From Desulfurococcaceae archaeon (GTDB lineage: Archaea; Thermoproteota; Thermoprotei_A; Sulfolobales; Desulfurococcaceae): a DNA stretch of 46,444 nucleotides. How positions within the stretch are numbered: the first letter of the stretch is position 1; every line of letters begins with the position of its first letter. The notes beneath the pieces are model-generated. The model made no database searches. It was not told the origin of the DNA and was given only the letters and a program-made list of their open reading frames with translations. The stretch lies in assembly GCA_020833225.1 (NCBI GenBank), contig JAJHQS010000007.1:1-46444 (forward strand), given 5' to 3'. The position numbers were made by a program, and so were the translations under genes. This document shows positions 31,599 through 37,311 of the stretch, one piece after another.

Positions 31599-32567
31599 TT
31601 AAAAACTCTCACTATTACTCAGTATTCTTTCAAAATTTAATAACTCACCAAGATCTCTCGGTAAGTGTTGAGCACCATAACCAGTAGCCTTGTAAGCTGC
31701 TAGTAGTGAACCCAATTTTGCCGCATTACTTATACTATAACCTTTCAATATACCATAGAGAACTCCGGCGTTAAAAACATCACCACAACCAGTTGTATCT
31801 ACTACGTGAACTCTATATGCTGGTATAGTTATAGCAATATTTCTCCCTCGGATTAAACAACCCTTCTCACCTTGTTTTAAAAAGATAACGTGGGGTGTAA
31901 TTATCTCATATAATGCCTCTAAGCCATCATTAACATTCATAGATCCAGTGATCTCAAGTAGCTCTTCTTCATTTAGAAATAAATAATTTAATTTTCCTCT
32001 CAGCTCTGAGAGTATTTTATTGTGTTCTTGTTTAAACCCGCCAAGATCAATAGCTACGAGTACACCGTGTTTTGAAGCCTCTGAAGCAATATTTATAATG
32101 CTTTCACCACGATCTTCATTGTGAATAGTATAACCTGAAATAAATACTAATTGAACACACATTAATCTATCTAAGATAGAAGAGAATTCTCTAGCTCTAA
32201 TAGTGTTTTTCTCTGATGCTCCTTTATACGTGAAGAGTGTTCTATGACCACTGGGTTCAATAAAGCCAATTGTGACCCCAGTATAGGTTTCTTTAATTTT
32301 CTTAATGTAATCTACTCCTACATTTTCATTTACCAATGTACTTAGTAAATATTCTCCTATTGGATCTATGCCTATAGTTGAAATTACATATACGGGTATT
32401 TTAAGTCTAGATAGTGCTACAGCAATATTTCCTGCAGCACCTCCAGGAGATATAATCACGCGTTTAATTATGTGAGCCCTGCGATCTATACTCACATTTT
32501 CCTCTAAGTAGAAGAGGATATCTAAGAGGAGATCTCCATATACGATGACACAGCACTCTCTACTCAA
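31599..32567 (-). CDS. PfkB-family sugar/nucleoside kinase
   Basis: A 322-residue ribokinase-fold kinase. The glycine motif of the substrate site is SPGGAAGNIAVALSRL and the C-terminal ATP/anion-hole motif is DTTGCGDVFNAGVLYG with the catalytic Asp. Family members phosphorylate ribose, nucleosides or ketosugars. The TTG start overlaps the BtpA-family stop by four bases (TTGA), so the pair is one operon. Next to a nucleoside importer, a nucleoside or ribose kinase role is the most economical reading, but substrate is not determined by the sequence. Confidence 0.9.
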   Translation of the reverse strand: MSRECCVIVYGDLLLDILFYLEENVSIDRRAHIIKRVIISPGGAAGNIAVALSRLKIPVYVISTIGIDPIGEYLLSTLVNENVGVDYIKKIKETYTGVTIGFIEPSGHRTLFTYKGASEKNTIRAREFSSILDRLMCVQLVFISGYTIHNEDRGESIINIASEASKHGVLVAIDLGGFKQEHNKILSELRGKLNYLFLNEEELLEITGSMNVNDGLEALYEIITPHVIFLKQGEKGCLIRGRNIAITIPAYRVHVVDTTGCGDVFNAGVLYGILKGYSISNAAKLGSLLAAYKATGYGAQHLPRDLGELLNFERILSNSESF

Positions 32568-33448
32568 ATATTTCTCAACCTCTTAACTACAGACATTAAT
32601 TTACGTACTCTCTCAGGATCTACTGGGTTTTGAGTTATACCATTAACTTTGAAATATGTACCTACGATAGCCCCATCAGCGTATTTGAGAAGTTTTTCTG
32701 CATTTTCAGGTGTTAACCCACTTCCAATTAGGACGGGTGTATCACCCACGATCTCTTTTACTAACTTCACATCTTCAGGTGAAGGAGATTCACCAGTCAT
32801 TTTACCAGTAACTATAATAGCGTCTGCTAGGTAAAAATCACTCCACTTAGTGTGTGTTACAATATCTATACCGGGAAATACAACACTATGTTTTTTAACA
32901 ACATCAACAAAGAACTTTATGTCTTCAGCGTAGAGGTGTTTTCTCAGCCTAAAGAGGTCTGCTGTAACACCATGATCTAATTCACCAGTATCCCACACAG
33001 CCGCGCCAGTGTAGAGACATACTCTTATAAATCTAGCTCCAGCAGCTTTAGCTATGCCTAATGCTACTCTACCACCATTATGTATTACTGTTATACCTAC
33101 TGGTATACTAACGTTTTTAACAACTTCACGTGCAACTACAGCGTGTGCTGCTATCTCCTCAGGCGGTATTCTAAGTGCTCCACTATAATATGGTAAATCC
33201 CACATATTTTCAACTATTACACCATTAACCTCGTTTTCCTCATATATCTTAGCCTCTTTTACGGCACGCTCAATAATAGTATCTATAGGCCAACCCTCAT
33301 ATGCCGGTGCTCCTGGAAGTGGAAGCATATGTATCATTCCAATAATAGCCTTATCTACTCCGAAGAGATCTCTTATGGAGAAGAGCCTCTTAGAATAGAA
33401 TTTCTTAGCCCACTCTTCAATCATTAATTCTAAATCTCTACGTCTCAT
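32564..33448 (-). CDS. btpA: BtpA/SgcQ-family TIM-barrel protein
   Basis: A 294-residue TIM-barrel protein of the BtpA family: AIIGMIHMLPLPGAPAYEG near the N terminus, NGVIVENMWDLPYY, IPVGITVIHNGG, ARFIRVCLYTGAAVWDTG and the C-terminal phosphate-binding strand-loops TPVLIGSGLTPENAEKLL and ADGAIVGTYFK. The two Gly-rich C-terminal loops form a standard phosphate-binding site, so a phosphorylated sugar or nucleotide ligand is likely. BtpA was first linked to photosystem I in cyanobacteria, a role that cannot apply here. ATG 33448 has AGGTGTGCAAT before it; GTG 33457 is in frame but overlaps the ribosome site. Operon with the PfkB kinase, beside the nucleoside importer. Confidence 0.88.
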   Translation of the reverse strand: MRRRDLELMIEEWAKKFYSKRLFSIRDLFGVDKAIIGMIHMLPLPGAPAYEGWPIDTIIERAVKEAKIYEENEVNGVIVENMWDLPYYSGALRIPPEEIAAHAVVAREVVKNVSIPVGITVIHNGGRVALGIAKAAGARFIRVCLYTGAAVWDTGELDHGVTADLFRLRKHLYAEDIKFFVDVVKKHSVVFPGIDIVTHTKWSDFYLADAIIVTGKMTGESPSPEDVKLVKEIVGDTPVLIGSGLTPENAEKLLKYADGAIVGTYFKVNGITQNPVDPERVRKLMSVVKRLRNI

Positions 33449-33606
33449 ATTGCACACCTAATATAGTTGTCAATGTTTAATCTAATAATCTTGGCAATTG
33501 AATGTAGAGTTAACTATAAGTTCTTAAACTACGCTAATTCCCCCTCAAATCTAACATCTATAGATGATTAAAAATACTTCCCCATACATATGACTATTTC
33601 ATATAG

Positions 33607-34802: not shown

Positions 34803-36146
34803 ATGGTGAAATGCTTGGTTAATAGGGTTTTCCTAGTAGAGGATTTTATATATAGAGTTGAGCGTGAAGGTTATAGTCCAAGTGAAGAAGAGATTAGAGT
34901 TATTGGTGAAGTGTTAGGTCAGCCTACGAGGAAGCTTAATGTTGTCTTAGATAGGTATTGGTATGTGTTTACGAGGAATATTGAGAAGAAGTGTAGTAGT
35001 ATTGGTAATAGGTCTATATGTATATATACATGGAGGACTAATGTTCCATTTAAAATTTACCCATTAGCACTACATGCTTTTGGAACAATTATTCTATTTG
35101 AGGGTGATAAGCCCGTTAGTATATTAGCTTATCCCTTTAATAAGCCATTGAGTTATGCTAAGTCTCCTGGTATTTCTGAGAATGAACTTAAAAATAGGGT
35201 CCCCAGAGAGGTTACTGTGAGAATTGATGGGTGGCATTTAACGCTATACTATAACCCCTTAATTGACAGGTGGATTTTTGCTACTAGATATGTTCTTCAC
35301 AACATGTACTATATGAGGGGTAAACTAGTAGAGGAGTCTCTAGATACTATTGCAAACCCCTATGTAGAAATAGCTGATGTTAAGGCTAGAGAAACAGGGC
35401 TCTACAATGTAGTTGAGAAGTTTAAGGGGTGGACTTTTACATTTGTATTAGAAGGCCCTGAACCAGCTATTACAAAGCCACCTTATCCAATAGGAGCTGA
35501 TCCAGGCCTCTTTAAGCTCTATTTAACGATGGCAAGAGATCCTGAGGGGAGACTATATACGTGGAGTGAGTCTCAGAAACTAATAGGCTATGAAATACCT
35601 AAATTAGTAGAGCCTAAAGACGTGGGTGAGTTATATCGTGAAGTCCGCGAGAAGCTTGACGTAAGGTCTTATATAGCTTATTTTGACAGCGGCGACCCTG
35701 AAAACCCTGTTCTAGTAGAGCTTGAATCTGATTATTATGCTGATGCTATGAGCGTTAAATATCTTAATGATGCTAAGTCAACAGCACTCTTAATTGTAGA
35801 GGGGTTTACTGAGAGACTTATAGAGTTATTACGTGAAGAACAAGTAGACGTTATTAAAAATATTAGTAGTAGTGTTCAAGGGCTCTTAGAAGTAATTAGA
35901 AAAGCTCTCTCTCAAAGACCCATAGAAGATGTTTCAAGAATAATAGTTAATACTGCGAGAGAACACGGTGTTAAAGGCCTATACTATGAGGAGATCTCTA
36001 AGAGCTTAAAAGAGAGTAATGTTAAGAGAGTTGTTAAAAAAGTACTTGGACTCTTATTAGAAAATAAATCTATATTGTCAACTGAGACAATGCAATTAAT
36101 AAATAGTTTTTCAGAGTCTTTAAAGAAGAATTTACGTGAACTCTAA
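34803..36146 (+). CDS. T4 RNA ligase 1-like protein, apparently catalytically inactive
   Basis: A 447-residue protein whose order of segments follows T4 Rnl1: PLALHAFGTIILFEGDKPVS and AYPFNKPLSYA, then motif I region VTVRIDGWHLTLYYN, motif III-like WIFATR, WTFTFVLEGPEPAI, KLYLTMARDPEGRLYTWSE, and motif V region VRSYIAYF to VELESDYY, then a helical C-terminal domain. Active ligases have K-x-D-G in motif I and E-G plus K-x-K in motif V. Here they are RIDG (Arg140), RS (288-289) and E-L-E (306-308), so the adenylated lysine and both motif V lysines are lost. The fold call is by eye. It may bind RNA or nucleotide without ligating. TTG 34815 is an alternative start with better GGTG spacing. Confidence 0.68.
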   Translation: MVKCLVNRVFLVEDFIYRVEREGYSPSEEEIRVIGEVLGQPTRKLNVVLDRYWYVFTRNIEKKCSSIGNRSICIYTWRTNVPFKIYPLALHAFGTIILFEGDKPVSILAYPFNKPLSYAKSPGISENELKNRVPREVTVRIDGWHLTLYYNPLIDRWIFATRYVLHNMYYMRGKLVEESLDTIANPYVEIADVKARETGLYNVVEKFKGWTFTFVLEGPEPAITKPPYPIGADPGLFKLYLTMARDPEGRLYTWSESQKLIGYEIPKLVEPKDVGELYREVREKLDVRSYIAYFDSGDPENPVLVELESDYYADAMSVKYLNDAKSTALLIVEGFTERLIELLREEQVDVIKNISSSVQGLLEVIRKALSQRPIEDVSRIIVNTAREHGVKGLYYEEISKSLKESNVKRVVKKVLGLLLENKSILSTETMQLINSFSESLKKNLREL

Positions 36147-36194: not shown

Positions 36195-36524
36195 ATGTCT
36201 GAAGTGGGCCTTATAGAAGCTATAGAGGTGTTATTGTCTAGTAAGCCACTACTAGTATTAATACTACAGTTTATACTTGGAGTAGGACTTGGCTATGTTA
36301 GTGTTAAGGCGTTTAAGTATGTTCTCGCATTCATAATCCTCTTACTACTAGGAGCACTTCTCTCACTATGGTCTCTGAGTGAACAAGCACATGCATTAAT
36401 GAGTGAACTTGGGGATATAGCTAGGCGTTTAATAGGTTTACTCATAGCTCTTGGAATACTCACAGTAGGCCCGCTCTCAATAGGTTTTCTCATAGGAGCT
36501 CTACTAGCATTAGTTAAAAAGTGA
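36195..36524 (+). CDS. FUN14-like small membrane protein
   Basis: A 109-residue protein with three hydrophobic segments (about residues 17-36, 38-60 and 80-105). The Gly-containing ILGVGLGYVSVKAFKYVLAF and the C-terminal GPLSIGFLIGALLALVKK resemble the helices of FUN14-domain proteins, including the small-residue turn before the last helix. The function of archaeal members is not known. ATG behind AGGTGTATTT. It follows the ligase-like gene after 48 bases and may be co-transcribed. Confidence 0.6.
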   Translation: MSEVGLIEAIEVLLSSKPLLVLILQFILGVGLGYVSVKAFKYVLAFIILLLLGALLSLWSLSEQAHALMSELGDIARRLIGLLIALGILTVGPLSIGFLIGALLALVKK

Positions 36525-36729: not shown

Positions 36730-37311
36730 TTGTCTGAGTTATATGTGCGGAGAGTTCTAGACCTTGTAGATGGTGTTTCACGAGAATTTAATTTACCATC
36801 ACTAGTTATTCTTGAGGCTAGAGATATTGCTAAGAGAGCTATTAGTGAAGAAGTAGCATTTGGCTTTAGACCTGAAGACGTGGCAGCTGTTTCTGTTTAT
36901 GTTGCTTGTAGGAGACATAGAGTGCCATTATTACTACGTGAAGTAATTTCTGCCGTGAAATCTGAGAGGAGGAGGGCTTTAAGCCTCTATAAGCGTATTC
37001 TCAGCTATCTAGGTATTAGTGTAAATATACCTAAACCTGAAGACCACTTATACTATATAGCTCCGAAATTAAATATTGATAGAGATGTTATTGAACATGC
37101 TGTTAAATTACTTAATGAGGCTAATAAGACAGGGTTTTCTGTAGGTAAGAATCCACGTGTATTAGCAGCTGCAGCTCTCTATACAGCTGGTATTTTAGCT
37201 AATAAGCCTATGTCAGTTAAGAATATAGCAAGTGTTTCTAAAGTGACAACAGTAGCTGTGAAATTGCTATCAAAGCGCCTATTAGAGCTTGTAGGGTTTA
37301 AGTCTATTTAG
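36730..37311 (+). CDS. TFB-like transcription factor lacking the zinc ribbon
   Basis: A 193-residue protein made of the two cyclin-like repeats of archaeal TFB/eukaryotic TFIIB. Repeat 1 is about residues 1-97 (LVDGVSREFNLPSLVILEARDI, VAAVSVYVACRRHRVP, LYKRILSYLGI) and repeat 2 about 98-193 (YYIAPKLNIDRDVIEHAV, NPRVLAAAALYTAGIL, SKVTTVAVKLLSKRLLELVG). A full TFB is about 300 residues with a zinc ribbon and B-reader/linker before the core; neither is here, and the 200 bases upstream hold an RNA gene and no Cys-rich coding sequence. It could bind TBP-DNA but should not recruit polymerase in the usual way. TTG start after GGGATTTAATA, with AAATATTTAAGG as a BRE/TATA-like element some 40 bases before. 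Confidence 0.85.
   Translation: MSELYVRRVLDLVDGVSREFNLPSLVILEARDIAKRAISEEVAFGFRPEDVAAVSVYVACRRHRVPLLLREVISAVKSERRRALSLYKRILSYLGISVNIPKPEDHLYYIAPKLNIDRDVIEHAVKLLNEANKTGFSVGKNPRVLAAAALYTAGILANKPMSVKNIASVSKVTTVAVKLLSKRLLELVGFKSI

Follow-up and report, generated by a model that had tools for sequence, protein, structure and literature searches.

The window analyzed herein, a 46,444-nucleotide stretch from a Desulfurococcaceae archaeon, carries an open reading frame whose product belongs by fold and by descent to the family of T4 RNA ligase 1 (Rnl1 or gp63, covered in Pfam by PF09511 and PF20819). Its features are collected in Table 1. Just 3′ of this gene lies a frame for a small hydrophobic protein of 109 amino acids, probably a membrane protein, that has no Pfam match (36195-36524, forward strand). 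A stretch resembling this protein persists in a genome of the same genus (G001), beside a remnant of the ligase-like gene. Farther downstream on the same strand (36730-37311) is a gene for a 193-amino-acid TFIIB-repeat protein (PF00382, E 1.5e-23) that consists of cyclin-like repeats and is too short for the usual N-terminal zinc ribbon. Genomes of the same genus preserve the synteny of this gene with those for a CBS-domain protein and a Mut7-C RNase. A BtpA-family gene is found near the ligase-like gene in the window (32564-33457, reverse strand) and, in genome G038, directly downstream of it (L092, 9389-10192), and these are the only two cases.

Table 1. Coordinates of the ligase-like gene and of its notable residues in the window.
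Feature	Position	Strand	Basis
Gene for putative Rnl1-fold pseudo-ligase, 447 aa	34803..36146	+	ORF, AlphaFold model, PDB fold match, hhalign
N-terminal helical segment, residues 1-59	34803..34979	+	not covered by the hhalign alignment with T4 Rnl1; model secondary structure, alignments
Conserved basic positions R43, K44, R51	within residues 1-59 (34803..34979)	+	alignments
Invariant cysteine pair (Cys64, Cys73) on neighboring strands	34992..35021	+	alignments, model
F93, replacing the T4 R54-type Arg	35079..35081	+	alignments, hhalign
Motif I R140-I-D-G (residues 140-143), replacing K-x-D-G	35220..35231	+	alignments
Post-motif I region T161-R162-Y-x-x-H166-N167-M168	35283..35306	+	T, H, N and M invariant in alignment
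V215, replacing the motif III Glu (T4 E159)	35445..35447	+	alignments, hhalign
Motif IV R288-S289, replacing E-G	35664..35669	+	alignments
Motif V E306-L-E308, replacing K-x-K; SDYY follows at 309-312	35718..35726	+	alignments
C-terminal all-helical domain, residues 309-447	35727..36143	+	model secondary structure; PDB alignment with T4 Rnl1

When searched as a single sequence, the protein has no family match in Pfam, NCBIfam, PHROGs, or the PDB, and the PD-L1 matches returned by this search are due to chance. PF09511 yields no match above its gathering score in the window protein, in any member of an alignment of 13 homologues, or elsewhere in the genome of origin. Because the single-sequence searches were empty and PF09511 was silent, the Rnl1 assignment required independent support. 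The 13 homologues, taken from related genomes, were used as the family alignment and profile for AlphaFold and hhalign, and the reference alignment of lysine-bearing Rnl1 proteins comprised sequences from archaeal genomes together with T4 Rnl1. With hhalign, the family profile matches the lysine-bearing alignment with a probability of 99.4% (E 1.6e-21) and T4 Rnl1 alone with an E-value of 2e-4. The same profile matches lysine-bearing archaeal Rnl1 proteins at E-values of 8e-9 to 1e-14, and the family HMM finds no match among PDB sequences. A preliminary description of this gene had proposed that the protein follows T4 Rnl1 segment by segment, and the residue pairing given by hhalign is identical to the one proposed.

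The AlphaFold model of the window protein, computed from the 13-homologue alignment, has a mean pLDDT of 92.5 and a pTM of 0.88. A structure search of the PDB with this model ranks T4 Rnl1 (2c5u) first, with an E-value of 5.7e-13 over 409 columns, followed by the T4 Rnl1 K99M mutant and ATP complex, and then by fungal Trl1 ligase domains and archaeal Rnl3 (E 3e-6 to 9e-6). RNA ligases also make up many of the best matches in a comparison with a viral library. TM-scores against the PDB matches are moderate (0.43-0.46 by query length) and the rmsd over whole chains is large, as can arise when the domains of multi-domain proteins differ in orientation. Thus, the argument for fold and homology rests on the E-values and on the profile result.

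The window protein resembles T4 Rnl1 in its fold, in the order of its segments, in the D-G of motif I, in the basic residue at the position of T4 K119, in the S and Y that follow motif V, and in its helical C-terminal domain. In contrast, the motif I lysine has become arginine, the equivalents of R54, E159, E227, and K240 are lost, a helical segment has been added at the N terminus, and PF09511 is blind to the protein. The nearest outgroups found are lysine-bearing archaeal Rnl1-like proteins (from G042, G052, G134-136, G041, G112, G453, and G507). These share with the window protein a C-I/V-Y strand and an RGT/GT motif, and the protein from G453 also shares W-x-x-A-T-R. However, they differ from the window protein and its arginine-bearing relatives (the Arg clade) in retaining ARGT/SRGT, K-x-D-G, the motif III glutamate, E-G, and K-x-K intact. 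Judging from these residues, the lysine-bearing archaeal proteins are probably active ligases. Examples with intact KxDG, EG, and KxK are encoded at L085 2776-3972, L079 6352-7371, L080 6135-7133, and L090 6053-7354; the L085 protein is below Pfam detection, and the G052 genome has two Rnl1 matches.

In nucleotidyltransferase ligases, AMP is carried on the motif I lysine. The columns that are invariant in the lysine-bearing Rnl1 alignment include T4 R54, G55, K75, F76, N78, K99, D101, G102, E159, E227, G228, K240, and K242, and we counted the residues at the corresponding positions over 31 distinct homologues, including the window protein. The position of K99 is arginine in all 31, so that Arg140 is not a chance substitution, and D142 and G143 (T4 D101 and G102) are likewise kept in every protein. 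At the position of T4 R54, arginine is found in 0/31 homologues, with F, T, Y, N, or G instead, and the position of T4 E159 is occupied by V, S, I, N, or M. The E-G of motif IV has become RS in 24 of the 31 proteins and PS or PA in an Acidilobaceae-type subclade (E227 position: R 24, P 7; G228 position: S 30, A 1). In motif V, the first lysine (T4 K240, residue 306) is replaced by an acidic residue throughout (E 29, D 2), and the second (T4 K242) varies widely (K 11, E 8, P 5, R 5, S 1, G 1).

The preliminary description had given the reading frame, its coordinates and length, and the residues RIDG, RS, ELE, and SDYY correctly. As to its question of whether R, RS, and ELE are conserved, the arginine is kept in all proteins and RS in most, but ELE is not a family-wide feature. 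The reversal of two positive charges in motif V is therefore general only for the first position, and the second glutamate is a state of the window sub-lineage. Similarly, the claim that every catalytic lysine has been replaced in the window protein is accurate for the equivalents of K99, K240, and K242, but the position of T4 K119 keeps a basic residue, R162, and is basic throughout the family (R 28, K 3). Two losses had been missed, namely those at the positions of R54 and E159.

In total, 21 residues are invariant among the 31 homologues, and these include R140, D142, T161, H166, N167, M168, and R245. Lysine and arginine interchange at most of the other conserved basic positions (R43, 12 R and 19 K; K84, 10 K and 21 R; K114, 11 K and 20 R; K412, 12 K and 19 R), with R245 being the sole position besides 140 that is strictly arginine. 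This pattern suggests that there has been selection for arginine itself at position 140. The model places the invariant cysteines at positions 64 and 73 where a cross-strand disulfide may form, and several lysine-bearing archaeal Rnl1 proteins have both cysteines as well.

In a maximum-likelihood tree, all 31 arginine-bearing proteins are separated from all 12 lysine-bearing proteins by a branch with support values of 100/99. T4 Rnl1 and other distant Rnl1 proteins fall on the lysine side of this tree, whose root is unproven. The Arg clade is monophyletic, and the lysine-bearing Rnl1 proteins lie outside it. Pairwise omega values of 0.07-0.21 for close pairs clearly indicate purifying selection. 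The distribution is patchy, with the gene present in 30 of the 229 genomes of the class (in one of the 30 as a contig-end fragment), and further carriers found beyond the class search are members of the Thermoproteaceae. All members found come from Thermoproteota, and searches of plasmids and viral contigs yielded none. An origin from viruses or plasmids was rejected because of this absence of matches to members and because the phage matches are mostly annotated RNA ligases at E-values of 0.05 or worse. One apparent member from Gemmatimonadetes (L037) is an aminotransferase-like ORF that fits the pattern by chance. In the same-genus genome G001, the flanking gene order is kept and the gene has been cut to approximately its first 30 codons, with a stop (L101, 1473-1570), which indicates that it can be lost and is dispensable.

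Given that the lysines of motif I and of the first position of motif V have been lost together with the other pocket residues, ligase chemistry is very unlikely, and by analogy with known ligases we infer that proteins of the Arg clade neither form ligase-AMP nor seal RNA. Because the ligase body is complete and well folded and the pocket positions are conserved, noncovalent binding of RNA or of a nucleotide can be inferred instead. We therefore favor, with a probability of roughly 0.55, the reading that these proteins are a conserved clade of Rnl1-fold pseudo-ligases, restricted to Thermoproteota, that bind RNA or a nucleotide without catalysis. This agrees with the earlier proposal of a retained pseudo-ligase rather than a decaying gene, since the substitutions are conserved in a monophyletic clade that is under purifying selection. 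The Rnl1 fold, in which a nucleotidyltransferase domain is joined to a helical C-terminal domain, is confirmed, and neither an intact KxDG nor an invariant lysine exists elsewhere in the protein.

If the favored reading is correct, the protein would bind either RNA (most likely tRNA-like molecules or the ends of broken RNA) or a nucleotide. Together with the retained ligase cleft, the T-R/K that follows motif I and the C-terminal domain of helices would form the binding surface. The old AMP pocket may have been rewired around R140 and E306, either to hold a fixed conformation or to accept a noncovalent ligand. Such a protein would work stoichiometrically, in that it would cap RNA ends, escort them, or compete with true ligases, and it would be an accessory and dispensable component, perhaps a scaffold or regulator. 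No neighboring gene was found to be conserved across the whole clade. GlmS-like, class II aldolase, metallophosphatase, and BtpA neighbors were considered as partners and rejected, because they occur only in sub-lineages, inconsistently, and point to no single pathway. The lack of a conserved gene partner means that no RNA pathway is indicated, which counts against the RNA-binding mode, and the patchy distribution would fit a niche role unrelated to RNA as well.

A possible though unlikely alternative is that the protein is a nucleotide sensor or allosteric regulator that binds ATP, AMP, or a signaling nucleotide noncovalently and controls a partner, with no binding of RNA. The strict conservation of former nucleotide-pocket positions (R140, D142, G143, E/D306, and S309) is consistent with such a role, as is the fixation of arginine at position 140 while other basic positions swap with lysine. 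However, the R54, E159, E227, and K240 equivalents that characterize the pockets of active Rnl1 proteins are gone, and the hypothetical partner has no counterpart among conserved neighboring genes.

The other RNA ligases of the carrier genomes bear on a second alternative. The archaeal homodimeric RNA ligase Rnl3 is represented by Pab1020 and MthRnl (structures 2vug and 5d1o). The window protein shares the superfamily fold with Rnl3, which is present in related archaea, but it lacks the Lig_C domain (PF18330), for which its genome (G000) also has no match, and the two rarely occur in the same genome. Specifically, Rnl3 matches are found in 3 of the 30 carriers (one broken and two intact) compared to 64 of 199 noncarriers. 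The broken copy, in genome G013, is a C-domain fragment with two in-frame TAG stops (G013:C33:2239-2493). With this copy excluded, the anticorrelation gives p 0.004 by Fisher's test and p 0.006 by within-family permutation. The values of 0.07 within genera and 0.23 at the genus level mean that the anticorrelation is not established, and we treat it as a possible lead only. RtcB is found in nearly all carriers, with none seen in G088 (82% complete), so RNA ligation as such is independent of the pseudo-ligase. It is conceivable, but we consider it doubtful, that the Arg clade replaces Rnl3 in lineages that have lost it, and that it protects RNA ends, counts them, or channels them to RtcB by means of a rewired pocket around R140 and E306 that is noncovalent or uses an undescribed chemistry. 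A heteromer with a lysine-bearing Rnl1 paralogue was also considered and rejected, as a second match occurs in none of the carrier genomes in a search of limited sensitivity to distant paralogues.

An active nucleotidyltransferase that uses a relocated or different nucleophile, either another lysine or His166, is improbable. The invariance of R140, D142, T161, H166, N167, M168, and R245 could reflect an active pocket, and there is a precedent in the deviant RNA ligase 2 of Diplonema (DpRNL), for which a rewired pocket with a relocated lysine has been proposed (PMC4599027). DpRNL, however, retains the motif I lysine in addition to its candidate replacement, whereas the Arg clade has no invariant lysine among its 31 proteins, the best position being K325 (29 K and 2 R). 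Thus, the family is unlikely to share one relocated lysine as its nucleophile. A histidine also aligns with H166 in the lysine-bearing Rnl1 from G453, and hence H166 did not originate within the Arg clade as a substitute for the lysine.

It is more difficult still to envision an ATP-independent ligase that performs only step 3 and seals RNA that has been 5′-adenylated by another enzyme, and we judge this to be very improbable. MthRnl relies on its motif I and motif V lysines, but its K97A mutant, in which steps 1 and 2 are abolished, has step 3 activity equal to that of the wild type, and step 3 is also kept in the motif V mutant K246A (PMC3514331). Retention of D142 and G143 in motif I would be compatible with such an activity. 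However, combining the two substitutions (K97A/K246A) leaves MthRnl without activity in any step (PMC3514331), and the Arg clade is without both equivalent lysines as well as the R54, E159, and E227 equivalents. Moreover, 27 of the 30 carriers have no detected Rnl3 that could supply adenylated RNA. Finally, a functionless, decaying ligase gene, as the patchy distribution and the G001 remnant might suggest, is scarcely credible given intact frames in 31 divergent members, the low omega values, and the 21 invariant residues that include R140.

No pseudo-version of an RNA ligase family was described in the open-access literature that we searched, and the novelty of these findings lies in the conserved clade of Rnl1-fold pseudo-ligases. 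A whole clade, unmatched by Pfam and NCBIfam, would have had its covalent nucleotidyl-transfer pocket rewritten once and would then have kept it. With the Arg clade, one can cleanly test how a ligase fold functions when deprived of its chemistry, and the clade serves as a warning that structure alone is insufficient for calling such proteins RNA ligases.
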